A stretch of 64,000 nt of DNA from Torymus aiolomorphi (Eukaryota; Arthropoda; Insecta; Hymenoptera; Torymidae). Under the pieces are notes generated by a model that was not told where the DNA came from, did not search any database, and saw only the letters and a list, made by a program, of their open reading frames with translations. Location of the stretch: contig CM070874.1 of NCBI GenBank assembly GCA_036365515.1, positions 221,820,942-221,884,941 of the forward strand, in the 5' to 3' direction. Below are positions 3,041 through 59,305 of the stretch, in pieces (position 1 is the first letter of the stretch; each line of letters starts with the position of its first letter). Position numbers and translations under genes: made by a program.

Positions 3041-3047
3041 ACAAAAT

Positions 3048-15356: not shown

Positions 15357-15399
15357 ACAATTAATTATTAAAGGGTTTTGTATCGTTTATATGTCTCCT

Positions 15400-16711
15400 G
15401 TGATTCTTGTTTTTAACTTTGTAAGTTATAGTGTATGTGTCAGTGTTTATGTTTGTAATTGTATAAGGTCCCAGCCACGTTTTTGAAAGAGGGGCCTGCT
15501 GTAAATTTTTGACCATTATTCTGTCTCCAATTTTATATAAAGGTGTTGGTTCTTTGCTTCTTGCTGTTACTTCTTGTTCATATTTTTCCTTAATTTTGTT
15601 AAGTTCTCTTTTACCTGTTTTAACAATTCTAAATGATTTTCTTGAAACTCAGTTATATATCTTGCAGCATCTTGAGATTTGAATTCCAGTGTTGGCATTT
15701 TAGTTTCCAAATGACTTTTCTTGAAATACATTGCTTCCGAAGGAGCGAACCCTGTTCCTTTATTTATCATGTTATTAAAAATAAATTGAACTTTCTTCAA
15801 ATGTTGCGACCAAGTTTCAGGTTTATCAGTAATTATTTTCAATTGGTCTTTTATGGTTGCATGTGCTCGTTCTAGAGACCCATTAGATTGAGGATGTCCT
15901 GCTGCTATGACAATTGGTTTAACTTTAAGATGTTTTAGTAAAATTTTCATTATTTCTGATTGAAATCCGGTAGCATTATCCATAATAATTTCAGCAGGGA
16001 TTCCATAAATATATATGTAAATTTCTAAAAGTGCTTCCGCAGTCTCAATAGCTTGTGTTGATTTAGCAGGTATAAGAGTTAACATTTTTGTCAATTGATC
16101 TTGAATAGTTAAGATGTATTTGAAACCTTCCGTTGATGCTGGCAATAGTCCCACGTGGTCTATAGCAATTCTTTCACCTAGTGTCCTAGGAGGATGTATT
16201 AATACTCCATCAGCTTGATTATTATGTTGTGCTCTCTTAGTAAGTTGACAATCTTTACAGCTTTTAATATAATCCTCTATATCTTTCTTCATTTTTTCCC
16301 AATAAAACTTCTGGCTTATTTTTTCATATGTTTTACTTATCCCAAAATGTCCATTTTCGGGTCCATGATAATCTCTTATTATTTTTGCGCGTTCATTTTT
16401 GTCTTTAACTTCCGTTACGGACATTACTATTATTTCAATATTTTTAGTCTCATCAAAATACTTTGTATTTAGATATTTTAACATTCTTACTAATTTTATT
16501 TTAATATTCTCATCTAATTTCCTTAAATCATAACAAACCTTCATAAAGTCTGATGTTAGATGTCCTTTTAATTTTGCAAAAGCTTCCTTGGGCTCAGTCT
16601 CTGCTGCAATAATAATGTCATCATCGTTTCCTTTTGGTCCTATGGTAATTATTGGTAATTTTGTTCTTAATACTTCTTTTAAAGGTTTTAACTGTGTATG
16701 TCTGTACTGCG
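15400..16711 (-). pseudogene. pol: errantivirus pol, integrase part
   Basis: An open frame from the MITE junction (16711) reads an integrase. It has an H-x-H and CKDC zinc-binding motif (HYHGPENGH-like region, then SCKDCQLTK), followed by the catalytic D,D,E core: AIDHVG, then IMDNATGF, then GSLERAHATIK. The long frame closes at 15567, and a neighbouring frame continues with a WLGPYTI motif (GPY/F-type C-terminal module) to about 15400. Integrase inserts the element cDNA. The core Asp, Asp and Glu are all present, but the gene is separated from RNase H by a 675-bp MITE and has a frame change near 15570, so pol as a whole is broken. It lies just upstream of env on the same strand. Confidence 0.85.
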
Positions 16712-17395
16712 TTAAGGGGGCTAGACACATTTTTTCTCTGAAATAAGAAGTCACATTTTAATACATAAATGTAAACTAATTATTTCATACTTTTTACATA
16801 TAAAAGTGGGTATATTTACCTTATCTTAAAACTTTCTCCGATGGGCCTTTTATATGGTCCAGAACCATAGTCATCGATGAAACAAGTTTTTTCACTAACC
16901 GTAAGCTTTGAAATTTTCCTGTGGATGGATTGACTTCAGATTTGAACTAAATTACTCCTGAATAGTATAATTCTCATATGAGTGTAGGGATTTTTTATCT
17001 AATGAGAAAAAAAAAATTGTGCTGTTTTTCAAGAGTTTTTTTTAATTTTTTAAAATTTTTTATATTTTTTCATAATTTTTCTGATGTAAAAATTTTTTCC
17101 GACATTTAATCCTAAATCCCTACACTCATATGAGAATTATACTATTCAGGAGTAATTTAGTTCAAATCCGAAGTCAATCCATCCACAGGAAAATTTCAAA
17201 GCTTACGGTTAGTGAAATAACTTGTTACATCGATGACTATGGTTCTGGACCATATAAAAGGCCCATCGGAGAATGTTTTAAGGTAAGGTAAATATACCCA
17301 CTTTTACATGTAAAAAGTATGAAATAATTAGTTTACATTTATGTATTAAAATGTGACTTCTTATTTTAGAGAAAAAAGGTGTCTAGCCCCCTTAA
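16712..17395. mobile_element. 675-bp palindromic MITE in pol, TTAA duplication, copy 2
   Basis: Flanked by TTAA (16712-16715 and 17392-17395), with ends GGGGGCTAGACAC and GTGTCTAGCCCCC, a perfect 13-bp terminal inverted repeat. Arms match copy 1 (14253-14935) almost base for base. The asymmetric AT-rich loop (about 16990-17120) is the reverse complement of the copy 1 loop, so the two copies sit in opposite orientations. It splits the errantivirus pol between RNase H and integrase. Confidence 0.92.
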
Positions 17396-30199: not shown

Positions 30200-33000
30200 T
30201 ACCTATTAGTCTCTCTCCCACCCTATCTCTCCCTCCCTCGCTTCCCGACCTCTCTCTCTCTGTCGCTCTCTCTCTGGCTCTCTCTCTATCTCTCCCTCTC
30301 TCTCAACATCCGGCAAGCTGAGTACCAAAAACTTTAACGAGTGCTTAAATATTTTTTTAGAAGAATCAACACGTTTTTTAAAAGCTAATTTTTTAATAAA
30401 ACTTTCTACGAAAGTATAAAATAAGGCAAGTATAGACATTTTTTCTGGATAATCTATAAAAAACAACACAATTTATCTAGTCCTTTTATGTCTTCGAGTC
30501 CCATCTATTTAATAAACACTCTACAAATGGTAATAATTTTTTTCATGACTGTACGAATAATCTATCACATAATAATATTTATGATTTTGTAAAAGAAATC
30601 AAATAAATACGAATGAAAAAGTCTTAATTCTTTGAGTCATTGTATGCTGAACAAATTATATGTAAGTAAGTACATTCATAAAATTGTTCACTTAAAATCA
30701 AACAAACGAAAGTTGTGAAATCAATTATCGATAATCAAGTAATGCAAAGAACTCTCGGAAACTACTGTATGACTGTTCTCAGAAATATATTCAAATTTGT
30801 TCGTCTTTCTGAGCTATAGAAATTAAACACAAGAAAGTACTGAAATCAACTTATTGTAGTCAAGTACCGGCCATAAGTTAAATTGATTGACATAATAGAA
30901 CTTTTCGTTTCTAGCGTGTAAAATTACATTTTACGCCCACGTTGTAACTTCAAAATTATTCAGCCAGCGGGCATAAAATACTACTTAGCGCCCAAGAGGC
31001 CCAATAGCTCACAAACTCTTACAAAACTTTATAGAACCTACGCACTTTACGCCAGTGTGGGCGAAAATTATTTTAATTATATAACTGTAATGCCTTCTCT
31101 TTATTTCTAAAATTCATAAGAATTTTTTTAGATATTTACGAAAAGCCAAAGCTTATATAAAAAAATTACATAGTTACCAACACATCACTATTTTTCATGA
31201 TTCTTTATCAATTTTGAACTTTCTATAATATTACGCACCTTGGGAGGAAAAGAGAAGTCTAGAGCTGCCCTAGCAGGGATGGTCCTCCGATCTCCCATAC
31301 ATACTTGGCGGGCCCGACGATTTGCAGTTTACCGGTGGGCTACTTAAATATAGAATAGAAAATTTTTGCATAAATTCATTAACAATATTTATACCTATAA
31401 GTCTACTATAAATAATTACATTGGCTTTAATTTTTAATTGGTTCCGTTAAGTACAACATCCCTATATGTGCAGAATCATGATTTACTTTTATTACCCACA
31501 ATATTTTTCTTTGTGTCCGTCCTTTTTAAACGAGAATAAAATAAAAAATTCATATAAATTTATAGTCTACTTAAAAGTGCTTTACATTTTACTAACCGTT
31601 TTATAAGCAACCTATTGTGTATCCTTTTCCCGCGTGTAAATATTATATAAGATCTCATATGAGAATTTCAGGCATCGCATATCTCGTATCAGATCTCATA
31701 TGCGATGTCATCTGCAATTTTATATATTATGGGATTACATATAAGATCTCATATGATACTTTCAGGCGGGTTTGCACTTTCAATTTAAAAACAGAGTGAT
31801 AGATACACGGATCAGTAGTTAATATCTAGAAGGAACCCATTTATACATTTTATCTGATCTTTAAACATATGAATAGTTATATGAAAATAACCATGTTTTA
31901 CACCTTGAACTGCAAATCGTCGGGCCCGCCAAGTATGTATGGGAGATCGGAGGACCACCCCTGCTAGAGTAGCTCTAGACTTCTCTTTTCCTCCCAATGT
32001 GCGTAATATTATAGAAAGTTCAAAATTGTGAAAGAATCATGAAAAATAGTGATGTGTTGGTAACTATGTAATTTTTTTATATAGGCTTTGACTTTTCGTA
32101 AATATCTAAAAAAATTCTTATGAATTTTAGAAATAAAGAGAAGGCATTATAGTAATATAATTAAAATAATTTTCGCCCACACAGGCGTAAAGTGCGTAGG
32201 TTCTAGAAAGTTTTGTAAGAGTATGTGAGCTATTGGGCCTCTTGGGCGCTAAGTAGTATTTTATGCCCGCTGGCTAAATAATTTTCAAGTTACAACGTGG
32301 GCGTAAAATGTAATTTTACACGCTAGATACGAAAAGTTCTATTATGTCAGTCAAGTTAACTTATGGCCGGTACTTGACTACAATAAATTGATTTCAGTAC
32401 TTTCTTGTGTTTAATTTCTATAGCTCGTAAAGATGAACAAATTTGAATATATTTCGGAGAACAGTCATACAGTAGTTTCCGAGAGTTGTTTGCATTACTT
32501 GGCTATCGATAATTGATTTCAAACTTTTGTTTGTTTGATTTGCAGTGAACAATTTTATGAACGTACTTACTTACATATAATTTGTTCAGCATACAATGAC
32601 TCAAAGAATTAAGACTTTTTCATTCGTATTTATTTGATTTCTTTTACAAAATCATAAATATTATTATTTTATAGATTATTTGTACAGTTATGAAAAAAAT
32701 TAGTACCATTTGTAGAGAGTATTTATTAAATAGATGGGATTCGAAGACATAAAAGGACTAGATAAATTGTGTTGTTTTTTATAGATTATCCAGAAAAAAC
32801 GTCCATACTTGCCTTATTTTATACTTTCGTAGAAAGGTTTATTAAAAAATTAGCTTTTAAAAAACGTGTTGATTCTTCAAAAAAAATATTTAAGCACGCA
32901 TTAAAGTTTTTGGTACTCAGTTTGCCGGATGTTGAGAGAGAGGAAGAGATAGAGAGAGAGAGAGTCGGAGAGAGAGCGAGAGAGAGAGAGAGAGAGGTTT
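30200..33000. mobile_element. 2.8-kb palindromic element with CT/GA-rich ends
   Basis: The left arm (about 30200-31335) and right arm (about 31900-33000) are inverted copies. Examples are CAACATCCGGCAAGCTGAGT at 30305 against ACTCAGTTTGCCGGATGTTG at 32916, and the GCCCAAGAGGCCCAATAGCT block near 30990 against 32230. The ends are a CT-rich run on the left and the matching GA-rich run on the right. The central 560 bp (31336-31899) is AT-rich and contains repeated AGATCTCATATG. No transposase frame. A non-autonomous foldback is the best reading; no target duplication was resolved because the ends are low-complexity. Confidence 0.85.
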
Positions 33001-40866: not shown

Positions 40867-41062
40867 CTATTTTTTACGTCCATTTCCTCCACCCCCCCCA
40901 AATCACTAATCCTAAAATAAGCAATTGGGTAATTTTGTACACTTTTTTTACAATTAATTACAACCACAATCGATTTTTTTACAAGTGTATAAACAACGTT
41001 ATAAACAAACAAAAGGGAGGGCGGGAGAAATATTTTGCCAGCCCCCACATAAAAAAACCACA

Positions 41063-41450
41063 ATTTCCAGAACGGTAACGTAATCTACGATTTATTTACA
41101 ATTATTGACAACCACAAAAACTGGTAAATGTCGATTATTTATAAGAATTTTGAGCAATAATTTCGCCAACCCCCATACGCCAAAATCAATTTTTCAAAGT
41201 GCTAACGTAATCTACGATTTATTTACAATTATTTACAACCACAAAAACTGGTAAAAGTCGATTATTTATAACAATTTTGAGAAATAATTTCGCCAGCCCC
41301 CCATATGCCAAAATCAATTTTTCAAAGCGTTAACGTAATCTACGATTTATTTACAATTATTTACAACCATGAAAAACGGTACAAGTCAATTATTTATAAC
41401 AATTTTGAGCAATAATTTTGCTAGCCACCTCATACGCCAATCTATTTCTC
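41063..41450. repeat. 129-bp array, left arm, about 3 copies
   Basis: Unit with TAACGTAATCTACGATTTAT and GTCGATTATTTATA(A)CAATTTTGAG; inverted relative to the right-arm array at 57310-59092. Confidence 0.9.
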
Positions 41451-42030
41451 AAAACGTAAATAGTCTATATTGTTTAATAGATTTTTACATCATAATTTTA
41501 TTATCCATTGTTGGACTTTCGTTTACCAAATAATACTGCCAGTCAGGTTAGGTGCGGTTGTGATTCTGTATGACTAAAGTTACTCGGGAAAAATGTATGA
41601 GGAAGTATCGTGGTTGATCGATGATAGAAAATGGAAATTTTTACCCTCGCCAATATTTAAATGACTAGTAGCGGCTTAGAGTTACAGATGACAAAATCAG
41701 ATAAATCAGAACTTGGAGCGAGTACGCCGATTTGCGAGTATGATACTCTATATAATATAACTGTTATTATAACTGTTAGAGGACTGCGTTTATTACAGGG
41801 ATGCAACTGTCTCCTCTATTTCCTATTTTTTTTAATCCTCTATTTTACCCTTTTTCCAAGTTACTCCTCTATTTACTCTATAATCAGCGATCTCTCCAAT
41901 TTACCGATGAATTGCAATGAAAAAGACGCGCGGACTACAATTTGGAAAGACTTCGTCGTCTCCTGTAGGTATGGTTGCCACCTTTTACATTTGAAGTTGC
42001 TGGCCGACTGATGACTGGCGGTGTGGAGGG
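41451..42030. other. unique spacer module of the giant foldback, left arm
   Basis: Mirror copy of about 56745-57310 with small differences. Pyrimidine-rich CTCCTCTATTT repeats near 41815-41880. A 116-codon frame (41661-42011) is not preserved as a conserved protein signal in the other arm, so it is not called. Confidence 0.6.
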
Positions 42031-42330
42031 GAGGCAAGTAGGCGGGGGATATGAGGTCCATGCATATTAGAGAATTACGTAGCCCTGCAACAATAAGCAA
42101 GACAATTATTTAAACAATTTTTAAACCAAAGTAGGGTGGGGATATGTGGCCCACGTATATTAAGGAATTACGTAGATATGCAACAATAAGCAAGAGAATT
42201 ATTTAAACCATTTTTATACCCAAGTAGGCGGGAGATATGAGATTCGCGCATATAAGGAAGTCATGTAGACATGAAGAAAATAAGCAAATCGTTTATTTAA
42301 ATAATTTTTAAACACAAGTAGTATGTGGGA
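42031..42330. repeat. 95-bp array, left arm, about 3 copies
   Basis: Unit with AAGTAGGCGGG(A/G)GATATGAG, CATATAAGGAAGTCATGTAG and AATAAGCAA..ATTATTTAAA; inverted relative to 54330-54850 and 56220-56745. Confidence 0.85.
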
Positions 42331-42481
42331 AAACGTCTATTAAGCTAGCAGATCACTTTTATGACCCGGGCTTATAAACAATGACATAATTTTCTGCTAA
42401 TTTTCTGCTAATTTTCTACGCCCACCCGGATTTTTCTGCTCCAGCCGTTTCCGAGAAACATGCGATCTGCTAACGTAATAT

Positions 42482-43010
42482 TAAGCTAGCAGACCATTTT
42501 CGGGTATCTTGGCGCGTTTTTTGCCTTAGCCAATTTAGAGAGGGGGCATATTTTGGTGCTAATTTTCTGCTGCCAGATGCTCGGAGCCAAAAGTCCCAAA
42601 ATTCTTCGTAGGCCCCAGAACTGGACATAGACCCAGAGCCAAAAGTCCCAAAATTCTTCGAAGGCCCCAGTACTGTACATAGGCCCAGATTAATATTAAG
42701 CTAGCAGACCATTTTAGGGTATGTTTGCGAGTATTTGCCTTAGCGAATTCGAAGAGGCGGCATATTTTGGTACTAATTTTCTGCTGTAAGATGGTCCGAG
42801 CCAAAAATCCCAAAATCCTTCGTAGATCCCAGAACTGTACGTAGGTCCAGACTAATACTAAGCTAGGAGACCAGTTTCGGTTATCTTGGCGAGTGTTTGC
42901 AATAGCGAATTCGGAGCACGCATATTTTGGTGATAATTTTCTGCTGTATTATAGTCGGGGTTAGAAATCCCAAAATCCTACGGAGGCCCAGAATTGGACA
43001 TAGGCATGAA
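42482..43010. repeat. about 170-bp array, left arm, 3 copies
   Basis: Units begin TTAATATTAAGCTAGCAGAC and contain GGCATATTTTGGTGCTAATT and AAAAGTCCCAAAATTCTTCG; mirror of 53545-54180. Confidence 0.85.
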
Positions 43011-43384
43011 GCTGAAGCTACCCGCTACACATTCTATCCGTCCGAAGATCCGCACTGAAATAGTGGGGCAAAGTGAGGCATGTAAAAATTTCGCATTAAA
43101 TATTGTTTACAAGCACGCGTGTCACATATAAGTGATGACAACCCATAGTAGCAATGGTAAAATATATAAATCAGCGTCAAAAAGTTTTTGGTGCTAATTA
43201 TTTAAATAAACAATTAAGCAGCTTACTTGCATAAAAGGCAAGGATATCCGCTTTGCGAATTTTGGAGCTGGAACTCCGGTTCAAATTATGACAGGATAAC
43301 GAAACTGCGGGAAAACGATCTGCTGATCTAGGCAAACACCTCCTTGTAGGAGAATTTGCGGCACCAAATATTTAAATAAACAAT

Positions 43385-44255
43385 AAAGGAGGTCAGACAC
43401 CTATACAATTTTCTTCATAAAATGACCTGAAAAAAATTAATTTTCATAATTAGAAATATTTAGAAGTAATATCCTAAAAATATATTCAATTTATGATAAA
43501 ATGAGATCCAATAAAAAAATTTTGATCGATTTTAACCAAATATGTGGCCATTTCAAAAGTTTTGCTCTGCCGTCTACTCCAGATTCAAGAACGGTATATA
43601 CTTTAATGGGAGAGGTTCTAAAATGTTGGTATTTTATATGACTATTGACTGATGCGTTGTATGTATCCAATTTATTTGATTAAATAATTTTTTACGGTCA
43701 AAAAGTGCTAAAAAATCTTAAATTTAAGTGAAATTCAGATTTTTTAGCAATCATTGACCGTAAAAACTTATTTAATTAAATAAATTGGATACACATACAA
43801 CTCTTCAGACAATAGACATATAAAATACCAAAATTTTAGGATCTCTCCCATTAAAATATATGCAGTCCCTGAATCTGGAGTCGACGGCAGAGCTCAAAAT
43901 TTTACATTATGTAGAAAACAGCTTTAAAGATAAAATTACTACAATACTTCTTTGAAAACTGATCTAAAATACATTTACGTATTATAATACACTAAATGTT
44001 TACTCCAAAATTCATTGGAGACAACGAAAATTAAGAACAACACTTTGTATAGAAAAGGTGCTGATACTGATATCACAGTTATATGAAATGACAGCTGTGC
44101 ATGTTTACATTGCTTGCGGACTTTTACGTAGGTTAAAATCAACTCTGTTAGAGTGAATCCACATTGCATGCCGTATGCGCTATGCCGTCAGAAAAAAAGT
44201 TGTTGTCTGAAATCTATAGGATTTATAACTCTATGATTATAAATTCTATAGGAAT
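43385..44255. mobile_element. foldback nested in the giant element's left arm
   Basis: It interrupts a 173-bp unit: unit sequence stops at about 43382 (AAATAAACAATA) and resumes at about 44262. The core is an inverted repeat of about 180-bp arms (43545-43730 and 43735-43905), with CCGTCTACTCCAGATTCAAG mirrored by CTGAATCTGGAGTCGACGG and TTTTTACGGTCA mirrored by TGACCGTAAAA. The outer parts are not palindromic. No gene; exact ends uncertain. Confidence 0.65.
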
Positions 44256-44660
44256 TGTTTAAATATACAATTAAGCAGCTTACTTGCATAAAAAGCAGGG
44301 ATATCCACGGCTTCTCGAATTTTGGAGCTGTAACTCCGTTTCAAATTATGACCGGATAACAAAACTGCGGAAGAATGTTCTTCTAATGTAGACGAACACA
44401 TCAGCGTAGGAGAATGAGCGGCATCAATTATTTAATTAAACAATTATTAAGCATCGTACTTGCATAAAAAGCAAGGATATCCGTGGCATTGTGAATTTTG
44501 GGGCTGTATCTCCGTTTCAAATTATGACAGGATAACGAAACTGCGGAAAAACGTTCTTCTGATCTAGACGAATACCCCGTGTTGAAGAATTTGCTACACC
44601 AATTTTTTAAATAAACAATTAAGCAGCTTGCATAAAATTTCGAAAAACTTCGAATATCTT
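44256..44660 (-). repeat. 173-bp units in left-arm orientation (2+ copies)
   Basis: Reverse-orientation copies of the main array unit (ACAATTAAGCAGCTTACTTG ... CAAATTATGACCGGATAAC). With the one at 43190-43382 they are the entire left-arm counterpart of about 50 right-arm units. The palindrome centre is about 44,660. Confidence 0.85.
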
Positions 44661-47600
44661 TGATTATTGTGAAAGCAGATTAATTGTTTATGTAAATAAT
44701 TGGTGCCGCAAATTCTCCTACATGGATGTGTTCGTCTACATCAGAAGGACATTTTCCTGCAGTTTTGTTATCCTGTTATAATTTGAAACGAAGGTACAGC
44801 CACCAAAATCGAAAAACTGCGAATATCCTTGCTTTTTATGCAAGCTGCTTAATTCTTTATTTAAAAAATTGGTGTAACAAATTCTTCAACATGGGGTGTT
44901 TGTCTAGATCAGAAGAACGTTTTTCGGCAGTTTCGTTATCCTGTCATAATTTGAAACGGAGATACAGCTCCAAAATTCACAATGCCATGGATATCCTTGC
45001 TTTTTATGCAAGTATGATGCTTAATAATCGTTTATTTAAATAATTGGTGCAGCAAATTCTCCTACGCGGATGTGTTCATCTACATTAGAAGAACATTCTT
45101 CCCCAGTTTTGTTAGCCGGCCATAATTTGAAACGTAGTTACAGCTCCAAAATTCGAAAAGCAGCGGATATCCCTGCTTTTTATGCAAGTAAACAGCTTAA
45201 TTGTTTATTTAAATAATTGGTGCCGCTAATTATCCTATACGGATGTGTTCTTTTACATCAGAAGAACTTTCTCCAGCAGTTTTGTTAGCCGGTCATAATT
45301 TGAATCGGAGTCGCACCTCCAAAATTCGCACAGACGAGGATATACTTGCCTTTTATGCAAGTAAGATGCTTAATTGTTTATTTAAATAATTGGTGCTTCA
45401 AATTTTGCTACTCGGATGTGTTCGTCTACATCAGAAGAATATTCTCCCGCAGTTTCGTTAGCCGGTCATAATTTGAAATGGAGTTACAGCTCCAAAATTC
45501 GAAATGCCGCGGATATCCATGATTTTTATGCAAGTAAGCTTCTCAATTGTTTATTTAAATAAGAGGTGCCGCTAATTCTTCTACGCGGAGGCGTTCGTCT
45601 ACATCAGATGAACATTTAGCCGCAGTTTGGTTACCCTGCCATAATTTCAAATGGAGTTCAGCTACCAAAACTCAAAAAACCACGAATATACTTGCTTTTT
45701 ATGCAAGTAAGCTGCTTAATTATTTATTTACATAATTGGTGCAGAAAATTCTCCTACACGGAATGTGTTCGTCTACATCAGAAGAACATTCTCCAGCAAT
45801 TTCTTTAGCCGGTCATAACTTGAAACGTAGTTACAGCTCCAAAATTCGAAAAACCGTGGATATCCTTGCTTTTTATGCATGTAAGATGCTTAATTGTTTA
45901 TTTAAATAATTGGTGCCGCCAATTTTCCAACGCGGATGTGTTCATCTACATCAGAAGAACATTCTCCCGCAGTTTCGTTAGCCGGTCATAATTTGAAATG
46001 GAGTTACAGTTCCAAAATTTGCAAAGCCGCGGATATCCTTGCCTTTTATGCAAGGTAGATGCTTAATTGTTTATTTAAATTATTGGTGCCGCTATTTCTC
46101 CTACCCGGAGGTGTTCGCCTACATCAGAAGGATATTTTCGCGCAGTTATTTTAGCCGGTCATAATTTGAAACAGAGCTACAGCTCCGAAATTCTAAATGC
46201 CGCGGATAACCCTGCTTTTTATGTAAGTAAGCTTCTTAATTGTTTATTTAAATAATTGGTGCCGCTAATTCTCCTCACGGTGGTGTTCGTCTAAATCAGA
46301 AGAACGTTTTCGCACATTTTCGTTATCCTGTCATTATTTGAAACGGAATTACAGCTCCAAAACTCGAAAAACCGCGGAAATCGTTGCGTTTTATGCAAGT
46401 AAGATGCTTAATTGTTTATTTAAATAATTGGTGCCGCCAATTTTTCTATGCCGATGTGTTCTTCTACATCAGAAGAACATTCTCCAGCAGTTTCGTTGGT
46501 CGCTCATAATTTGAAACGGAGTTACAGTTCCAAAATTTGCAGAGCCGCGGATATCCTTGACTTTTATGCAAGTAAGATGCTTAATTGTTTATTTAAATAA
46601 TTGGTGGATCGAATTTTGCTACGCGCATGTGTTCGTCTACATCAGAAGAACATTCTCCCGCAGTTTCGTTAGCCAGTCATAACTTGAAACCGAGTTACAG
46701 TTCCAAAATTCGACATGCCGCGGATATCCAAGCTTTTTATGCAAGTAAGCTTCATAATTGTTTATTTAAATAATTGGTGCCGCTAATTCTTCTACGCGGA
46801 GGCGTTCGCCTACAGCAGAAGAACATTTTGCCGTAGTTTGGTTATCCTGTCATAATTTCAAATGGAGATCAGCTACCAAAACTCGGAAAACCATGAATAT
46901 CCTTGCTTCTTATGTCATTAAGCTGCTTAATTGTTTATTTAAATAATCGGTGCCGCAAATTCTCCTACGCGGATGTGTTCGTCTGCATCAGAAGAACATT
47001 CTCCCGCAGTTTAGTTAGCCGGTCATAAATTCAAATGGAGTTCAGCCACCAAAACTCGAAAAATAACGAATATCCTTTTGATGCAAGCCTCTTAATTGTT
47101 TATTTGAATAATTTGTGTAGCAAATTCGTCTACGCCGATCTGTTCGTCTACATCAGGAGTACATTCACCCGCAGTTTCGTTGGCCGCTCATAATTTGAAA
47201 CGGAGTTACAGTTCCAAAATTTGCAGAGCCGCGGATATCCTTGCTTTTTATGCAAGTATGATGCTTAATAATTGTTTATTTAAATAATTGGTGCCGCAAA
47301 TTCTCCTACGCGGATGTGTTCATCTACATTAGAAGAACATTCTTCCCCAGTTTTGTTAGCCGGCCATAATTTGAATCGGAGTCGCACCTCCAAAATTCGC
47401 ACAGACGAGGATATACTTGCCTTTTATGCAAGTAAGATGCTTAATTGTTTATTTAAATAATTGGTGCTTCAAATTTTGCTACTCGGATGTGTTCGTCTAC
47501 ATCAGAAGAATATTCTCCCGCAGTTTCCTTAGCCGGTCATAATTTGAAACGGAGTTACAGCTCCAAAATTCGAAATGCCGCGGATATCCATGATTTTTAT

Positions 47601-50600
47601 GCAAGTAAGCTTCTCAATTGTTTATTTAAATAAGAGGTGCCGCTAATTCTTCTACGCGGAGGCGTTCGTCTACATCAGATGAACATTTAGCCGCAGTTTG
47701 GTTACCCTGCCATAATTTCAAATGGAGTTCAGCTACCAAAACTCAAAAAACCACGAATATCCTTGCTTTTTATGCAAGTAAGCTGCTTAATTATTTATTT
47801 ACATAATTGGTGCAGAAAATTCTCCTACACGGAATGTGTTCGTCTACATCAGAAGAACATTCTCCAGCAATTTCTTTAGCCGGTCATAACTTGAAACGTA
47901 GTTACAGCTCCAAAATTCGAAAAACCGTGGATATCCTTGCTTTTTATGCATGTAAGATGCTTAATTGTTTATTTAAATAATTGGTGCCGCCAATTTTGCA
48001 ACGCGGATGTGTTCATCTACACCAGAAGAACATTCTCCCGCAGTTTCGTTAGCCGGTCATAATTTGAAATGGAGTTACAGTTCCAAAGTTGCAAAGCCGC
48101 GGATATCCTTGCCTTTTATGCAAGGTAGATGCTTAATTGTTTATTTAAATTATTGGTGCCGCTATTTCTCCTACCCGGAGGGGTTCGCCTACATCAGAAG
48201 GATATTTTCGCGCAGTTTTTTTAGCCGGTCATAATTTGAAACAGAGCTACAGCTCCGAAATTCTAAATGCCGCGGATAACCCTGCTTTTTATGTAAGTAA
48301 GCTTCTTAATTGTTTATTTAAATAATGGGTGCCCCTAATTCTCCTCACGGTGGTGTTCGTCTAAATCAGAAGAACGTTTTCGCACATTTTCGTTATCCTG
48401 TCATTATTTGAAACGGAATTACAGCTCCAAAACTCGAAAAACCGCGGAAATCGTTGCGTTTTATGCAAGTAAGATGCTTAATTGTTTATTTAAATAATTG
48501 GTGCCGCCAATTTTTCTATGCCGATGTGTTCTTCTACATCAGAAGAACATTCTCCAGCAGTTTCGTTGGTCGCTCATAATTTGAAACGGAGTTACAGTTC
48601 CAAAATTTGCAGAGCCGCGGATATCCTTTGCTTTTATGCAAGTAAGATGCTTAATTGTTTATTTAAATAATTGGTGGATCGAATTTTGCTACGCGCATGT
48701 GTTCGTCTACATCAGAAGAACATTCTCCCGCAGTTTCGTTAGCCAGTCATAACTTGAAACCGAGTTACAGTTCCAAAATTCGACATGCCGCGGATATCCA
48801 AGCTTTTTATGCAAGTAAGCTTCATAATTGTTTATTTAAATAATTGGTGCCGCTAATTCTTCTACGCGGAGGCGTTCGCCTACAGCAGAAGAACATTTTG
48901 CCGTAGTTTGGTTATCCTGTCATAATTTCAAATGGAGATCAGCTACCAAAACTCGGAAAACCATGAATATCCTTGCTTCTTATGCAATTAAGCTGCTTAA
49001 TTGTTTATTTAAATAATCGGTGCCGCAAATTCTCCTACGCGGATGTGATCGTCTGCATCAGAAGAACATTCTCCCGCAGTTTAGTTAGCCGGTCATAAAT
49101 TCAAATGGAGTTCAGCCACCAAAACTCGAAAAATAACGAATATCCTTTTGATGCAAGCCTCTTAATTGTTTATTTGAATAATTTGTGTAGCAAATTCGTC
49201 TACGCCGATCTGTTCGTCTACATCAGGAGTACATTCACCCGCAGTTTCGTTAGCCGCTCATAATTTGAAACGGAGCTACAGTTCCAAAATTTGCAGAGCC
49301 GCGGATATCCTTGACTTTTATGCAAGTAAGATGCTTAATTGTTTATTTATATAATTGGTGCCAATAATTTTCCTACGCGAATGTGTTCATCTACTTCAGA
49401 AGAACTTTCTCTAGCAGTTTTGTTAGCCAATCATAATTTGAAACGAAGTTACAGCTCCAAAATTCGACATGCCGCGGATATCCAAGCTCCTTATGCAAGT
49501 AAGCTTCTTAATTGTTTATTTAAATAATTGGTACCGCAAATTCTCCTACGCGGATGTGTTCGTCTGCATCAGAAGAACATTCTCCCGCAGTTTAGTTAGC
49601 CGGTCATAATTTCAAATGGAGTTCAGCGACCAAAACTCGAAAAATCACGAATATCCTTTTGATGCAAGCCTCTTAATTGTTCATTTGAATAATTGGTGCA
49701 GCAAATTCGTCTACACCGATGCGTTCGTCTACATCAGGAGAACATTCACCCGCAGTTTCGTTAGCCGGTCATAATTTGAAACGGAGTTACAGCTCCAAAA
49801 CTCGAAAAACCGTGGATATCCTTGCTTTTTATGCAAGTAAGAAGCTTAATTGTTTATTTAAATAATTGGTGCCGCTAATTCTCCAAAGCGGATCTATTCT
49901 TCTACATCAGAAGAATATTCTCCAGCAGTTTCGTTAACCGGTTATAATTTGAAACGGAGTTACAGCTCCAAAATTCGAAAAAACGCGGATATCCTTGCTT
50001 TTTACGCAAGTAAGATTCTTAATTGTTTATTTAAATAATTGGTGCCGTAAATTTTGCTACGCTGATGTGTTCTTCTACATCAGAAGTATATTCTCCAGCA
50101 GTTTCGTTAGCTGGACATAATTGGCAACGGAGTTACAGTTCCAAAATTCGCAAAGCCGCGGATATCGTTGCCTTTTATGCAAAAAAAATGCTTAATTGTT
50201 TATTTAAATAATTGGTGCCGCCCATTTTGCAACGCGTATGTGTTCGTCTACATCAGAAGAACATTCTCCCGTAGTTTCGTTAGCCGGTCATAATTTCAAA
50301 AGGAGTTCAGCCACCAAAACTCGAAAACCCACGAATATCCTTGCTTTTTATGGAAGTAAGCTGCTTAATTGTTTATTTAAATAATTGGTGCCGCAAATTC
50401 TCCTACACGGAGGTGTTTCTTTAGATCATAAGAACGTTTTCCCTCAGTTTCGTTATCCTGTCATAACTTGAACAGGAGTTATAGCTGCAAATTTCGCAAA
50501 GCTGCGGATATCATTGCTTTTTATGCAAGTACGCTGCTTAATTGTTTAGTTAAATTATTGGTGCCGCAAATTTTGCTACGGGGATGTGTTCTTCTACATC

Positions 50601-53345
50601 AGAAGAAAATTCGGCAGCAGTTTCATTAGCCGGTCATAATTAGAAACGGAGTTACAGTTCCGAAATTCGAAAAGCCGCGGATATTCCTGCTTTTTATGTA
50701 AGTAAGCGGCTTAATTGTTTATTTAAATAATTGGTGAGGCTGATTCTCCTACATGGAGGTGCTTGTGTAGATCAGAAGAACGTTTTTTCTCAGTTTCGTT
50801 ATCCTGTCATAATTTGAAATGGAGTTACAGTTTCAAAATTCGCAAAGCCGCCGATATCCTTGCCTTTTATGCAAGTAAGATGCTTAATTGTTTATTTAAA
50901 TTATTGGTGCCGCAAATTTTGCTACGGGGATGTGTTCTTCTACATCAGAAGAACGTTTTTCCTCAGTTTCGTTAGCCAGTCATAATTTGTAATGGAGTTA
51001 CAGTTCCGAAATTCGAAAAGCCGCGGATATTCCTGCTTTTTATGGAAGTAAGCGGCTTAATTGTTTATTTAAATAATTGGTGAGGCTAAATCTCCAACGG
51101 GGATGTCTTCTTCTACATCTGAAGAATATTCTCCAGCAGTTTCGTTAACCGGTTATAATTTGAAACGGAGTTACAGATCCAAAATTCGAAAAAACGCGGA
51201 TATCCTTGTTTTTTATGCAAGTACGATGCTTAATAGTTTATTTAAATAATTGGTGCCGTAAATTCTGCTACGCCGATGTGTTCTTCTACATCAGAAGAAT
51301 ATTCTCCAGCAGTTTCGTTAGCTGGTCATAATCGGAAACGGAGTTACAGTTCCAAAATTCGCAAAGCCGCGGATATCCTTGCCTTTTATGCAAGTAAGAT
51401 TCTTAATTGTTTATTTAAATAATTGATGCCGCCAATTTTGCAACGCGTATGTGTTCTTCTACATCAGAAGAAAATTCTGCAGCAGTTTTGTTAGCCGGTT
51501 ATAATTAGCACGGAGTTACAGCTCCGAAATTCGAAAAGCCGCGGATATTCCTGCTTTTTATGTAAGTAAGCGGCTTAATTGTTTATTTAAATAATTGGTG
51601 AGGCTGATTCTCCTACACGGAGGTGTTTGCGTAGATCAGAAGACCGTTTTGTCTCAGTTTCGTTATCCTGTCATAATTTGAAATGGAGTTACAGTTCCAA
51701 AATTCGCAAAGCCGCCGATATCCTTGCCTTTTATGCAAGTATGATGCTTAATTGTTCATTTAAATAATTGGTGCCACAAATTTTGCTACGCCGATGAGTT
51801 CTTCTACATCAGAAGAACATTCTCCAGCAGTTTCGTTAGACGCTCATAAATTGAAACGGAGTTGCGGTTCCAAAATTTGCAAAGCCGCGGATATCCTTAC
51901 CTTTTATGCAAGTAATAAGCTTAATTGTTTATTTGAATAATTGGTGCCGCCAATTGTGCTACGCAGATGTGTTTGTCTACATCAGAAGAACATTCTCCCG
52001 CAGTTTCGTTAGCCGGTCATAATTTGAAACGGGGTTACAGTTAGCCATAATTTGAAACGGGGTTACAGTTAGCCGTTAGCCGGTCATAATTTGAAACGGG
52101 GTTACCGCGGATATCCTTACCTTTTATGCAAGTAAGAAACTTAATTGTTTATTTGAATAATTGGTGCCGCCAATTGTGCTACGCAGATGTGTTTGTCTAC
52201 ATCAGAAGAACATTCTCCCGCAGTTTCGTTAGCCGGTCATAATTTGAAACGGGGTTACAGGTCCGAAATTCGAAAAGCCGCGGGTATCCCTGCGTTTTAT
52301 TTAAGTAAGCTGCTTAATTGTTTATTTAAATAATTCGTGCCGCTAATTCTCCTCACGGAGGTGTTTGTGTAGATCAGAAGAACGTTTTTCCTCAGTTTCG
52401 GTGTCCTGTCATAATTTGAAATGGAGTTACAGTTCCAAAATTCGCAAAGCCGCCGATATCCTTGCCTTTTATGCAAGTAAGATGCTTAATTGTTTATTTA
52501 AATAATTGGTGCCGCCAATTATTCTACGCGGATATGTTCGTCTACATCTGAAGAACATCCTCCCGCAGTTCGGTTAGCCGTTCATAATTTGAAACGGAAT
52601 TACAGCTCCAAAACTCGAAAAACCGCGGAAATCCTTGCTTTTTATGCAAGTAAGATGCTTAATTGTTTATTTATATAATTGGTGCCGATAATTTTCCTAC
52701 GCGAATGTGTTCGTCTACATCAGAAGAACATTTTTCCGCAGTTTTGCTATCCTGTCACAATTTCAAATGGAGTTCAGTCACCAAAACTCGAACAACCGCG
52801 AATATCCTTCCTTTTTATACAAGTAAGATGTTTCATTGTTTATTTAAATAATTGGTGCCACTAATTAACGCGGATGTGTTCTTCTACATCAGAAGAACAT
52901 TCTCTAGCAGTTTTGTTAGCCGGTCATAATTTGAAACGGGTTGACAGCTCTAAAATTCGAAAAACCGCGTAAATCCTTGCTTTTTATGCAAGTAAGATGC
53001 TTAATTGTTTATTTAAATAATTGCTGTCGCAAATTTTGCTACGCCGATGTGTTCTTCTACATCAGAAGAACATTCTCCCGCAGTTTCGTTAGACGGTCAT
53101 ACTTTGAAACGCAGGTACAGCTCCAAAATTCGCAAAGCCTCAAATATCATTGCCGTTAATGCAAGGAAGCTGCTTAATTGTTTATTTAAATAATTGGTTC
53201 CTTAAATTCTGCTACACGGAGGTGTTGGCCTAAATCAGAAGAACGTTTTCCCACAGTTTCGTTATCCTGTCATAATTTGAACCGGAGTTACAGCTCCGAA
53301 ATTCGCAAAGCTTCGAATATCCTTGCTTTTTAAGCAAGTAAGCTG
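44661..53345 (+). repeat. 173-bp satellite array, about 50 units, with 2.07-kb higher-order repeat
   Basis: The monomer is about 173 bp with TTAATTGTTTATTTAAATAA, CTACATCAGAAGAACATTCT and GCCGCGGATATCC. Neighbouring units differ by about 10-20 percent, but 45,300-47,265 and 47,371-49,335 match almost perfectly at an offset of 2,070 bp (12 units), a tandem higher-order duplication. Near 52,010-52,110 a local triplication of GGTCATAATTTGAAACGGGG breaks the unit length. Short open frames (60-105 codons) are by-products. Unequal exchange is the likely source. Confidence 0.93.
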
Positions 53346-53544
53346 CTTAATTGTTTATTTAAATAATTAGCACCAAAAATTTTTGACGCTGATTTATATA
53401 TTTTATCATTGCTACTATGGGTTGTCATCAGTTATATGTGACCCGCATGCTTGTAAACAATATTTTATGCGAAATTTTTACATGTCTCATTTTGTCCCAC
53501 TATTACAGTACGGGTCTTCCGGCGATAGAATGTGTGACGGGTAA

Positions 53545-54180
53545 CTTCAGCTTCATCAACTCTGGGCCCCCGAAGGATTTTGCGACTTTTGACTCCGACC
53601 ATCTTACAGCAGAAAATTAACACCAAAATATGTCGTCTCCCCGAATTCGCTATTGGAAACACTCGCGAGATACCCGAAAATGGTCTGCTAGCTTAATATC
53701 AATCCGCATCTATGTCCAGCTTTGGGACCTACGAAAGATTCTGGGACTTTTGACTCGGAGCGTCTTGCAGCAGAAAATTAGCAGCAAAATATGCGCCCTT
53801 CCCAAATTGGCTAAGGCAAAAACTCGTCAAGATACACGGAAATGGTCTGCTAGCTTAATATCAATCTGGATCTATGTCCAGTTCTGGGACCTATGAAGGA
53901 TTTTGGAACTTTTGGCTCCAAGCATCTTGCAGCAGAAAATTAGCACGAAAACATACCTCCTCTCCAAATTGGCTGAGGCCAAAACTCGCCAAGATACCCG
54001 AAAATGGTCTGCTAGCTAAATATCAAATTGGGTCTATGTCCAGTTCTGGGACGTACGAAGGATTTTGGGTCTTTTGGCTTCCAGCATCTTGCAGCAGAAA
54101 ATTAGCACCAAAATATGCCCCCTCTCCAAATTGACTAAGGTAAAAAGTCGCCAAGATACCCGAAAATGGTCTGTTAGCTT
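53545..54180. repeat. about 170-bp array, right arm, about 4 copies
   Basis: Mirror of 42482-43010, with one more copy; units separated by GGTCTGCTAGCTTAATATCA. Confidence 0.85.
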
Positions 54181-54914
54181 AATATTAAGCTAGCAGATCG
54201 CATGTTTCTCGGAAACGGCTGGAGCAGAAAAATCCGCGTGGACGTAGAAAATTAGCAGAAAATTAGCAGAAAATTATGGTATTGTTTATAAGCCCGGGAT
54301 ATAAAAGTGATCTGCTAGCTTAATAGACGTTGTGGGAAATAAGGTCCACGCATATAAGGGAGTCATGTAAATATGAAAAAATAAGTAAAAAGATTACTTA
54401 AATATGGTTAGATGTAGCCAATGGTAGGTTTTGGTATAGTTATAGAATTTGTAGCTAATGTCCGTACTACAAAGGTTTGTTAATAAATAAAACAAATAAT
54501 TACAACGTTTCAGACATTTTAATAAGTCCCTCTTCACGTTATTTTAAACGTATTGTCAATTAATCTATTACGGAACGTGGTCCATTCGCCGTCGCTGATT
54601 ACTTAAATAATTTTTAAACCCAAGTAGGCGGGGATGTGAGGTCCACGCATATAAGGGAGTCATGTAGACATGAAAAAATAAGCAAAAAGATTATTTAAAG
54701 AATTTTTAAACCGAAGTAGGCGGGGAATATGAGTTCCACGCATATAAGGGAGTCACGTAGACATGCAACAATAAGCATGACTATTATTTAAAGAATTATT
54801 ATATTCATGTAGCCCGGCCGCGAGGTCCGCGCATAGAAGGGAGTCGAGTTATAGAGATTAAGAATTTTTGAAATAAAAGTCTTGCTTACGTCGCACGTCT
54901 AAGTAACTCCGTTA

Positions 54915-56216
54915 TACGTGGTGTGTTCAAAAAGTAAGGTGACTTTATTTTTTTATCAAAAAATATTTATTTGTTCATCAATATTCATGTTCTCCCCTTG
55001 AAAGTAATCCCCTTCAGATATAATACACTTGTGCCAACGCTTTTTCCAAGCCTCGAAGCACTTCTGATAAGCATTTTCTGGTATAGCCTTGAGCTCAGCG
55101 ATTCAGTCTTTATCTCCTCAATCGTTGAAAATCTTCGTCCTTGCATGGGTCTCTTCAGTTTTGGGAACAGGAAAAAGACGCAGGGGGCCAAATCTGATGA
55201 ATATGGTGGCTGAGGCATGATTTTGGTTTTGGTTTTGGCCAAAAAATCACGCACAAGCAACGATGAGTGAGCAGGTGCATTATCGTGATGCAAAAACCAT
55301 GAATTATTTTTCCACAACGCCGGACGTTTTTCTCGTATTGCTTCTCGCAAACGGTGTATAACTTCAAGGTAATACTCCTTATTAACCGTACGACCTTGTG
55401 GGAAAAACTCCTGATGCACTACGCCGCGGTAATCGAAGAAAACAGTTAGCAAAACTTTGACATTGGAATGAACTAGGCGTGCTTTTTTCGGTCTTGTCTC
55501 TTCTAGGCTCTTCCAATTGGACGATTGGGCTTTGGTTTCGACGTCATAACCATATACCCATGATTCGTCACCAGTTATAACCCTTTTAAGCCAATCAGGA
55601 TCATCATTGACGTTATCCAACAGCTCCTGGATGATGCTCATGCGACGGTTCTTCTGATCAAAATTAAGCAGTTTCGGAACAAACTTCGCTAACACACGTC
55701 TCATGCCCAAAACATCCGAAAAAATTGCATGGCATGAGCCAATCAAGATGCCGATATCATCAGCAACTTGTCTAATGGTGATTCGACGATTCTCCAACAC
55801 CATTTTTTTCACTTCGTCAACGTTTTCATCAGTTATTGATCTGCTGGGGTGTCCAGAACGAGGTTCGTCATTGGTATCTTCTCGTCCTTCTTGGAAGAGC
55901 TTGTACCACTTATAAACATTTGTTTTGCTCAGAGTAGACTCACCGTATGCCACTGTCAACATTTCAAGTACTTTGGAGCACTTAATTCCATTTTTTACAC
56001 AAAATTTGATGCAAACTCTTTGATCCATTTTTTCGACAGCAGAAAATCGCCGAGAACACAAAAACACTTCTAACCTTTATGCTTCTCACAAACAAAGAAA
56101 GAATGCTATAAACTTGAAACTGTAAACACATGTTCGGGACGTGTGTACCAATATAAGAAAAAAAAAATGAAAATCGACTGCAAGTAAGTCACCTTACTTT
56201 TTGAACACACCACGTA
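54915..56216 (-). mobile_element. mariner transposon in the giant foldback's right arm
   Basis: Flanked by TA (54915-54916 and 56215-56216) with about 29-bp terminal inverted repeats, CGTGGTGTGTTCAAAAAGTA... and its complement, total 1,298 bp, the size of a complete mariner. It contains one transposase gene on the minus strand. The near-perfect TIRs indicate a moderately young insertion, younger than the array it interrupts. Confidence 0.95.
54985..56028 (-). pseudogene. mariner transposase, catalytic Asp lost
   Basis: Starting at the ATG at 56028 gives 347 residues, normal for the family. In order: N-terminal helix-turn-helix region (IKFCVKNGIKCSKVLEML), the linker AKFVPKLLNFDQKNRRM, then catalytic motifs ITGDESWVYGYD, LHHDNAPAHSS and YSSDLAPCVFFLFPKLK. 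In DD34D mariners the last motif carries the third metal-binding Asp at the position here occupied by Val (PCV), so the enzyme should be inactive. A frameshift near 55,098 also moves the last 45 or so residues out of frame; the neighbouring frame still reads AWKKRWHKC. The transposase would cut and paste at TA sites. An upstream ATG (56067) adds 13 residues but is less likely. Confidence 0.93.
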
Positions 56217-56744
56217 TGCGTGAAACTCGCGTCAACCGGTTACTTGGGTTTAAAAATTATTTGAATAATCATTTTGCTTATTTTTTCATGTCTACATGAC
56301 TCCCTTATATGCGAGGACCTCATACTCCCTGCTTACTTGGCATTAAAAATTATTTAAGTAACCTTTTTACTAATTTTTTCATATCTACATGACTTCCTTA
56401 TATGCGTGCACCATATTTCCTACATCCTACTTGGGTTTAAAAATTATTTAAATAAATAAGTAAACGTTTTGCTTATTTTGTTCATGTCTACATGACTTCC
56501 TTACATGCGTGAATCTCATATCCCCCGCCTACTTGGGTATAAAAATGGTTTAAATAATTCTCTTGCTTATTGTTGCATATCTACGTAATTCCTTAATATA
56601 CGTGGGCCACATATCCCCACCCTACTTTGGTTTAAAAATTGTTTAAATAATTGTCTTGCTCATTGTTGCAGGGCTACGTAATTCCCTAATATGTATGGAC
56701 CCCATATCCCCCGCCTACTTGCCTCCCCCCCACCGCCAGTCATC

Positions 56745-57310
56745 AGCCGGCCAGCCACTTCAAATGTAAAAGGTGGCAACCCTACCTACAGGAGACGACC
56801 AAGTCTTTTCAAATTGTAGTCCGCGCGTCTTTTTCATTGCAATTCATCGATAAATTGGAGAGATCGCTGATTATAGAGCAAATAGAGGAGTAACTTGGAA
56901 AAAGGATAAAATAGAGGATTGAAAAAAAAGAGGAAATAAAGGAGACAGTTGCATCCCTGTAATAAACGCAGGCCTCTAACAGTTATGATAACAGTCATAA
57001 TAGAGTATCATACTCGCAAATCAGCGTACTCGCTCCAAGTTCCAATTCATCTGAATTTGTCATCTGTAATCCTAAGCCGCTACTAGTCATTTAAATATTT
57101 GCGAGGGTTAAATTTTCCATTTTCTATCATCGATCAACAGCGATACTTCCTCATACATTTTTTCCGAGTAACAATAGTCATACAGAATCACAACCGCACC
57201 TAGCCTGACGGGCAATATTATTTGGTAAACGAAAGCCTAACAATAGATAATAAAATTATGATTTAAAAATATATTAAACAATATAGACTATTTACGTATT
57301 GAGAAATAGA
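56745..57310. other. unique spacer module of the giant foldback, right arm
   Basis: Reverse complement of 41451-42030, including the CGCGCGTCTTTTTCATTGCA stretch. No gene. Confidence 0.7.
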
Positions 57311-59092
57311 TTTTGGCGGATGAGGTAGCTAGCGAAATTATTGCTTAAAATTGTTATAAATAATCGACTTGTACCATTTTTCATGGTTGTAAATAATTGT
57401 AAATAAATCGTAGATTACGTTAGCGCTTTGAAAAATTGATTTTGGCGTATGGGGGGGCTGGCGAAATTATTGCTCTAAATTTTTATAAATAATCGACTTT
57501 TACCAGTTTTTGTGGTTGTAAATAATTGTAAATAAATCGTAGATTACGTTAACACTTTGAAAAATTGATTTTGGCGTATGGGGGTCCTGGCGAAATTATT
57601 GCTCAAAATTGTTATAAATAATCGACTTTTACCAGTTTTTGTGGTTGTAAATAATTGTAAATAAATCGTAGATTACGTTAGCACTTTGAAAAATTGATTT
57701 TGGCGTATGCGGAGGCTGGCGAAATTATTGCTCAAAATTGTTATAAATAATCGACTTTTACCAGTTTTTATGGTTGTAAATAATTGTAAATAAATCGTAG
57801 ATTACGTTAGCACATTGAAAAATTGATTTTGGCGTATGGGGGGGCTGGCGAAATTAGTGCTCAAAATTGTTATAAATAATCGACTTTTACTAGTTTTTGT
57901 GGTTGTAAATAATTGTAAATAAATCGTAGGTTACGTTAGCACTTTGAAAAATTGATTTTGGCGTATGGGGGGCTGACGAAATTATTGCTCAAAATTGTTA
58001 TAAATAATCGACTTTTACCAGTTTTTGTGGTTGTAAATAATTGTAAATAAATCGTAGATTACGTTAGCACTTTGAAAAATTGATTTTTGCGTATGGGAGG
58101 TTGGCGAAATTATTGCTCAAAATTGTTATAAATAATCGACTTTTACCAGTTTTTGTCGTTGTAAATAATTGTAAATAAATCGTAGATTATGTTAGCACTT
58201 TGAAAAATTGATTTTGGCGTATGGGGGTGCTGGAGAAATTATTGCTCAAAATTGTTATAAATAATCGACTTTTACCAGTTTTTGTGGTTGTAAATAATTG
58301 TAAATAAATCTTAGATTACGTTAGCACTTTGAAAAATTGATTTTGGCGTATAGGGGTGCTGGCGAAATTATTGCTCAAAATTGTTATAAATAATCGACTT
58401 TTACCAGTTTTTATGGTTGTAAATAATTGTAAATAAATCGTAGATTATGTTAACACTTTGAAAAATTGATTTTGGCGTATGATGGGGCTGGCGAAATTAT
58501 TGCTCAAAATTGTTATAAATAATCGACTTTTACCAGTTTTTGTGGTTGTAAATAATTGTAAATAAATCGTAGATTACGTTAGCACTTTGAATAATTGATT
58601 TTTGCGTATGGGGGGTTGGCGAAATTATTGCTCAAAATTGTTATAAATAATCGACTTTTACCAGTTTTTGTCGTTGTAAATAATTGTAAATAAATCGTAG
58701 ATTACGTTAGCACTTTGAAAAATTGATTTTGGCGTATGGGGGTGCTGGAGAAATTATTGCTCAAAATTGTTATAAATAATCGACTTTTACCAGTTTTTGT
58801 GGTTGTAAATAATTGTAAATAAATCTTTGATTACGTTAGCACTTTGAAAAATTGATTTTGGCGTATAGGGGTGCTGGCGAAATTATTGCTCAAAATTGTT
58901 ATAAATAATCGACTTTTACCAGTTTTTATGGTTGTAAATAATTGTAAATAAATCGTAGATTATGTTAACACTTTGAAAAATTGATTTTGGCGTATGATGG
59001 GGCTGGCGAAATTATTGCTCAAAATTGTTATAAATAATCAACTTTTACCAGTTTTTGTGGTTGTAAATAATTGTAAATAAATAGTAGATTAC
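57310..59092. repeat. 129-bp array, right arm, about 14 copies
   Basis: GGCGTAT recurs at 57444, 57573, 57702 and 57831, an exact 129-bp spacing, and so on to 59092. A four-unit block is duplicated at 516 bp offset: the variant TTTTTGCGTATGG occurs at 58083 and 58599, each followed by the same order of variant units. The left arm has only about three units. Confidence 0.93.
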
Positions 59093-59305
59093 GTTACCGT
59101 TCTGGAAATTGTGGTTTTTTTATGTGGGGGCTGGCGAAATATTTCTCCCGCCCCCCCCTTTTGTTTGTTTATAACTTTGTTTATACACTTGTAAAAAAAT
59201 CGATTGTGGTTGTAATTAATTGTAAAAAAAGTGTACAAAATTATCCCATTGCTTATTTTAGGATTAGTGATTTGGGGGGGCGGGGGAAATAGACGTCTAT
59301 TTTTT

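Follow-up and report, generated by a model that had tools for sequence, protein, structure and literature searches.

The stretch of DNA analysed here (the window) is a 64-kb portion of the genome of Torymus aiolomorphi, C2:221820942-221884941, and the host assembly comprises 1.08 Gb in 21 contigs. The window contains an inserted unit of 18,421 bp (40876-59296) that has inverted ends and is flanked by an exact 9-bp target-site duplication, CTATTTTTT, on the plus strand at 40867-40875 and 59297-59305. Rather than a single palindrome, this unit comprises two nested foldbacks, outer and inner, plus a mariner transposon. At the left outer edge CTATTTTTT is followed by ACGTCCATTTCC (40867/40876), and at the right outer edge GGAAATAGACGT is followed by CTATTTTTT (59296/59297). 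The first-pass annotation of this DNA, which described a foldback-type transposon with inverted outer ends and an exact 9-bp direct repeat on both sides, was correct on both points.

Each arm of the outer element consists, in order, of a terminus (T), a 129-bp array, a module termed B and a 93-bp array. On the left, in plus orientation, these are T (40876-41024, starting ACGTCCATTTCC), about 3.3 units of the 129-bp array (41025-41453), module B (41454-42034) and the 93-bp array (42035-42332), which is broken by the inner element. The remainder of the interrupted array region lies at 54340-54914 (plus strand). The right arm, in minus orientation, holds the 93-bp array (56241-56721), module B (56722-57298), 14 units of the 129-bp array (57299-59096) and T (59152-59296, ACGTCTATTTCC when read inwards). 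Tandem-array detection placed the approximately 129-bp array at 41025-41440 (3.3 copies) and 57299-59096 (14.0), and the 93-bp array at 42035-42321, 54597-54801 and 56241-56721. The two arms are 92.3% identical both over 584 bp (40876-41453 versus 58714-59296) and over 1325 bp (41025-42332 versus 56416-57733). As in other foldback-type elements, the inverted arms are long and contain tandem repeats, and the repeat number differs between arms and between copies, as with the 3.3 versus 14 units of the 129-bp array in the window. The part of the 93-bp array to the right of the inner element also holds an insert of about 192 bp (54405-54596), flanked by two copies of GATTACTTAAATA.

The inner foldback element (42333-54330, plus strand) is 11,998 bp long, and both of its ends read ACGTCTATTAAGC inwards. 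It is flanked directly by its own 9-bp duplication, TGTGGGAAA (42324-42332 and 54331-54339, plus strand), inside the outer 93-bp array. Both insertions, outer and inner, are shown. Its left arm, in plus orientation, contains terminus D (42333-42583), a 162-bp array (42584-43005, detected as tandem at 42636-43005) and module F (43006-43195). There follow three 173-bp units on the minus strand, opposite to the main array (43196-44637; units at 43196-43391 and 44253-44637), which are split by spacer H (43392-44252); no reading frame longer than 115 amino acids (aa) was found in H in the copies looked at. The main 173-bp array (44673-53368, plus strand) has 50 units and a 12-unit higher-order period. 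The right arm, in minus orientation, holds a mirror copy of F, termed X (53369-53570), the 162-bp array (53571-54185) and D (54186-54330). The mirrored module order reported in the first-pass annotation is real; what that annotation did not recognise is that these modules come from two elements, one lodged within the other, plus the mariner. Its idea of a single palindrome whose arms each hold several satellites is not supported, since the 129- and 93-bp arrays belong to the outer element, whereas the 162- and 173-bp arrays belong to a second foldback with its own duplication. Two of its unit lengths, 129 and 173 bp, were accurate; its 95 bp is 93 bp, and its "about 170" bp is 162 bp.

The mariner (54917-56214, minus strand) forms a third layer. 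It has TA on both sides and inverted ends CGTGGTGTGTTCAAAAAGTAAGG, and its transposase frame (54985-56076) encodes 363 aa matching the Pfam family Transposase_1.

Within the 64-kb window CTATTTTTT occurs five times on both strands, twice exactly at the two ends of the outer element. Pairs of 9-mers drawn by chance from the flanks agreed at 8 or more of 9 bases in 62 of 200,000 draws. Taken alone, the T-rich CTATTTTTT is moderate evidence of insertion, and it is the evidence from the family that settles the question. A search of the genome with the left outer terminus scored 40 places from 211 candidates; these best 40, the query's own place excepted, are 94-97% identical. Twenty stretches of about 10 kb (L009-L028), covering 21 of the 40 scored places, show 25 termini, all of which start ACGTCCAT and 23 of which start ACGTCCATTTCC. 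Nine pairs of outer ends were compared, and eight agree at 8 or more of 9 bases. Five of these are exact, namely the window, L015 (AAGAAAAAT), L020 (CAAAAATAG), L021 (TCTCAATGG) and C1:214314535-214336355 (GGGAGATTT); three have one mismatch (L009, L027 and C2:175357503-175383287). The shortest of the eight duplication-matched copies measures 4.3 kb (L021) and the longest 25.8 kb.

Unoccupied sites were also seen directly. The copy at L027 is placed in a repeated sequence, and a query made of its joined flanks with one duplication aligned over 296-300 of its 300 bases, with 83-94% identity, at all but one of the 40 places listed (the best 40 of 242 candidates); the 40th place is L027's own half flank. 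In all three of the unoccupied L027 sites that were read, GTTGTGTCG is present once. Similarly, L009 lies within a minisatellite whose adjacent units hold AAAAAGGTG once each. The expectations of the first-pass annotation that termini would occur elsewhere in the genome, and that an empty site would hold a single 9-bp sequence, were thus supported, the former by the best 40 of 211 candidates and copies with other duplications, the latter for one relative, L027.

For the inner insertion, a joined-flank query with one TGTGGGAAA crosses the junction at 92.9-96.4% identity in one of the two arms at 11 of 20 loci. Another seven match more weakly (75-89%; other or diverged units), and L017 and L023 gave no match. 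Ten of the 11 loci with an unoccupied 93-bp unit lack the inner element in the part seen, while the eleventh, L022, is a composite of both elements whose other arm keeps the unit unoccupied. In composites the block of 162- and 173-bp modules has ACGTCTATTAAGC, read inwards, at either end and is bordered on both sides by 93-bp repeats of the same orientation, as after an insertion. TGTGGGAAA is found at both ends of the inner element at 9/9 bases in the window, L016 and L060 and at 8/9 in L015; these duplications presumably represent one inherited event. Module maps of the 20 loci revealed that some copies consist of T-129-B-93 arms and the mariner, without the 162- and 173-bp modules, and that others hold those modules too. 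Outer-only copies complete with both ends are L009, L020, L021 and L027. Of the two mariner junctions, at least one recurs unchanged in 11 of the 20 loci; the mariner was carried along with the element.

A search with the inner terminus listed 40 full-length places from 974 candidates, and the 300 bp outside 20 of these were read. The picks were mostly places without a listed outer terminus nearby, a choice that, if it biases the sample at all, works against composites. Of the 20 termini, 15 lie at the same junction in the 93-bp array, some with point changes, and five lie in other DNA (L029, L038, L040, L044 and L045). The first proposal, one giant foldback with all seven modules in its arms from the outset, would account for the mirror order, which L015 repeats within 7.3 kb. 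It is very improbable, given that the inner part has its own exact 9-bp duplication within a 93-bp unit, that this unit is unoccupied in other copies, that the inner terminus occurs in other DNA and that complete outer-only copies exist. An assembly artefact joining unrelated arrays deserves still less credence. Assemblers struggle with long tandem arrays, and the locus is known here from the assembly, but the module order and junctions are repeated at many places on contigs C1-C5, and adjacent 173-bp units in the window are just about 82% alike, so that reads can be placed. We consider it highly probable that a non-autonomous outer foldback was invaded, in a 93-bp array, by a second non-autonomous foldback, and that it also holds a mariner and carries its satellites along.

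Three composites with both outer ends were found, namely the window, L015 and the copy at C1:214.3 Mb (middle unread), and they lie in three different exact duplications. The composite can therefore be said to have moved as a unit, and the nested pair appears to have travelled through the genome together. In a tree of module F, sequences from the left arms of 11 places (two solo copies among them) fall into a single group and the right-arm copies stand apart; in a tree of D, seven left-arm sequences from composites cluster. Since left- and right-arm sequences group separately across copies, the inner arms were already different when dispersal began, and a single origin of the composite is most likely. 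A competing account is that the composite never moved as a unit, the inner element having inserted separately into resident outer copies or spread into them by gene conversion. In its favour, some copies have the outer element alone, some inner termini lie outside the 93-bp array, and inverted repeats may convert; yet the insertion point is the same at 15 of 20 inner termini and module F splits into a left-arm and a right-arm group across copies, which makes this account rather unlikely. Gene conversion into existing outer copies is less likely than movement as a unit.

Arm-to-arm conversion in the outer element was considered and rejected on a comparison of identities within and between copies. 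For module B the within-copy values are 96.2, 93.5, 95.8 and 92.9%, versus a between-copy mean of 95.5% (206 pairs); for terminus T they are 93.8-98.0% (six pairs), versus a mean of 97.2% (345 pairs).

Several observations weigh against the overall account of one mobile foldback lodged in another. The outer end pair C1:209650122-209657195 agrees at just 3 of 9 bases; it may represent a recombinant copy, or else ends that do not belong together. The sole solo inner copy with both ends (C2:43513717-43529998) has unmatched flanks, CTTCCTGTA versus CGCACTATT. Recombinant copies might explain both mismatches; since this solo copy gives no matched pair of duplications, transposition of the inner element on its own is at most putative. 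In addition, the left-arm D sequence of L019 stands apart in a tree that, like that of F, carries no support values.

The outermost array of each element resembles its own terminus. The 129-bp unit repeats part of the outer terminus (T positions 63-94 match at 28 of 32), and the 162-bp unit repeats part of the inner one (D positions 6-27 match at 20 of 22); when the 93- and 173-bp units were compared with the termini, no comparable match was found. These array repeats may act as extra putative transposase-binding sites, an idea that parallels the 37-bp stretch of Tetris and the extra binding sites discussed for Galileo. In the window and in L056+L049 alike, the main 173-bp array runs to 50 units; L012 has at least 37, and the other eight copies counted have 5-19. 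The higher-order period of this array, taken in each array as the best of 25 lags, is 12 units in the window (0.870; other lags 0.81-0.84), 20 in L056+L049 (0.883) and 22 in L012 (0.888). For 35 of the window's 50 units of 173 bp, 47 of 50 in L056+L049 and 36 of 37 in L012, the closest relative is another unit of that array; chance would give 15-21%. Long 129-bp arrays behave similarly, with 35.7 of 40 same-array nearest units in L023 (6.6 by chance) and 7.0 of 14 in the right array of the window (0.8 by chance). The first five 173-bp units of the window and L015 are 0.905 identical, versus a mean of 0.836 over all offsets. These data may be read as a shared seed at the array edge, after which each copy duplicated blocks of about 2-4 kb independently.

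Growth of the arrays in place meets opposing evidence. All-pairs unit identity in the window is no higher within the copy than between copies (0.943 versus 0.942 for the 129-bp unit; 0.833 versus 0.842 for the 173-bp unit), which speaks against recent homogenisation. In other copies, such as L016 and L022, the within-copy value is at most about 0.02 higher, and several short 129-bp arrays (L016, L020 in both arms, L024, and L027 on the right) lack a same-array excess. The case for growth in place is made by the nearest neighbours and the best-of-25-lag periods. The 173-bp arrays of two places away from the listed termini (L059 and L060) both lie within inner-element modules, and neither is element-free. 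The link between satellite birth and transposition suggested in the first-pass annotation is partly supported: the arrays travel with the element and the long ones seem to have grown separately in individual copies, but there was no element-free array among the few examined.

The inner and outer elements share the terminal start ACGTCYATT and a duplication length of 9 bp, which suggests one enzyme type for both. This length falls within the 8-11 bp typical of the Mutator superfamily and was found in eight of nine outer pairs with at most one mismatch. Mutator-like elements (MULEs) are described as making 8-11-bp duplications and Rehavkus 9-bp ones in the accessible part of the source (PMC6446971). 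The foldbacks thus likely belong to the Mutator superfamily, and a Mutator-type transposase acting in trans is likely. MULE domains (PF10551) are plentiful elsewhere in the genome, with at least 150 matches (those scored out of 338 candidates), several of them in frames of 500-817 aa. Two findings count against this assignment. A Pfam scan covered 20 frames (10 from the window and 10 from other loci), the rest of the copies lying outside it, and among these 20 there was no MULE transposase, save a PF20700 frame in a separate insert of L011, and no PHD finger. Similarly, when 80 of the 150 MULE places were compared with 80 listed termini, the nearest were 153 kb apart. A transposase from outside the Mutator superfamily, giving 9-bp duplications by coincidence, much as the foldback-like Galileo proved to belong to the P superfamily, is an improbable but more serious rival. 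The lack of a cognate transposase in the scanned frames favours it, as does the origin of foldback form in other superfamilies, according to the accessible portions of two reports (PMC3573991, PMC4079207). The fit of 9 bp to both MULEs and Rehavkus and the abundance of MULE domains in the genome tell against it.

Further inserts were found within outer copies. An insert of about 4.5 kb nested in the foldback copy of L011 (L011:2523-6991) has ends GGTGGCTCATCACTGA, a TTAA duplication and a PF20700 domain, and we take it to be Kolobok-like. Its "Mutator-like" PF20700 frame was rejected as the missing transposase, since it lies in this separate TTAA-flanked insert. Similarly, frames without a Pfam match in L019 were rejected as a transposase source because they are part of a separate 2.9-kb element in module B (L019:4534-7408), which has inverted ends of about 600 bp (95.5%) and an apparent ATAG duplication, read by eye. 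In L017 (2328-7856), long inverted and direct repeats of 99% identity surround a reverse-transcriptase frame inside the foldback copy, suggesting a recent insertion.

Other repeats lie outside the foldback element in the window. These are a 90-bp minisatellite of about 32 units (25329-28231); an inverted repeat pair (575-1723 and 1895-3041; 92% over 1158 bp) with ends TTATTTA and no flanking duplication by eye; an inverted pair of about 685 bp (14253-17395; 95.5%) with ends TTAAGGGGGCTAGACAC, beside Gypsy-type frames; and an inverted pair of 1086 bp (30250-32992; 94.9%) with CT-rich runs at its borders. A minus-strand frame near the second of these pairs (13001-14152) matches Baculo_F. The window frames in the Pfam scan include mariner, LINE-type and Gypsy-type frames, one of them beside the Baculo_F match.

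The single ingredients of this system are already known. Tetris of Drosophila virilis, with its TIR-220 satellite, is likewise non-autonomous, has long inverted arms with a tandem array and makes 8-10-bp duplications; its units share a 37-bp stretch with the terminus, and its arrays have grown inside the element to as many as 66 copies. Compared by description, it differs in having one array type per arm (about 220 bp) and arms of up to 1,735 bp, and no co-moving nested foldback is described in the accessible part of that source (PMC4079207). The Tm1 Mutator/Foldback elements of root-knot nematodes have composite inverted repeats, variable tandem repeats, nested insertions, arms 93% identical on average and 8-10-bp duplications (mostly 9) in 45 of 53 elements, and some copies encode a Phantom-like Mutator transposase. 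Their repeats are about 14 bp, unlike those found here, and the available portion of the report leaves the nested inserts uncharacterised and describes no co-movement (PMC3169594). Galileo of Drosophila resembles the present elements in its long, internally repeated arms, with repeats varying independently per arm, and in chimeric copies with unmatched duplications, and extra binding sites have been discussed for its repeats. In contrast, it belongs to the P superfamily and has 7-bp rather than 9-bp duplications, at most three internal repeats of about 210 bp and arms of up to about 1.26 kb, as given in the accessible text (PMC3573991). Rehavkus shares the 9-bp duplication, a minisatellite near one terminus and arthropod hosts, annelids also being hosts, and the inverted termini of Rehavkus-1_TC hold a 164-bp Tribolium satellite (PMC6446971, PMC10218199, PMC13359780; partial texts). 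Here, too, a 9-bp duplication accompanies a minisatellite beside the terminus, with arrays in both arms rather than on the 3' side alone. The Rehavkus transposase carries a PHD finger, for which the 20 frames scanned here gave no match. The open-access texts, available in part, described no pair of foldbacks that move together, each with its own satellites; on this slender basis, the combination, the size and the array growth per copy may be new.

The whole can be summed up as follows. A second non-autonomous foldback entered one 93-bp array of the outer non-autonomous foldback, with the mariner as a third layer inside the outer element. A Mutator-type transposase, encoded elsewhere, would work in trans on the ends of both elements. 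The outermost array of each repeats part of its own terminus, as extra enzyme-binding sites might be expected to do, and unequal exchange of multi-unit blocks would lengthen or shorten arrays separately in each copy, as the higher-order periods and nearest neighbours suggest. Chances are about even for the fuller proposal, that a two-storey foldback, each storey with an array of its own terminus, has jumped as one body and seeds one common set of satellites at many places, and that each copy, once landed, regrows its arrays by its own duplications of kilobase blocks.

These elements also indicate that a foldback may harbour a second foldback and yet be copied as one unit, 7 to about 22 kb in size. 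Since the 173-bp array has been carried to many sites, comparison copy by copy allows a replicated study of array growth from a shared starting point. If the proposal is true, the two-storey foldback would amount to an experiment, replicated by nature, on how satellites grow from one shared seed.

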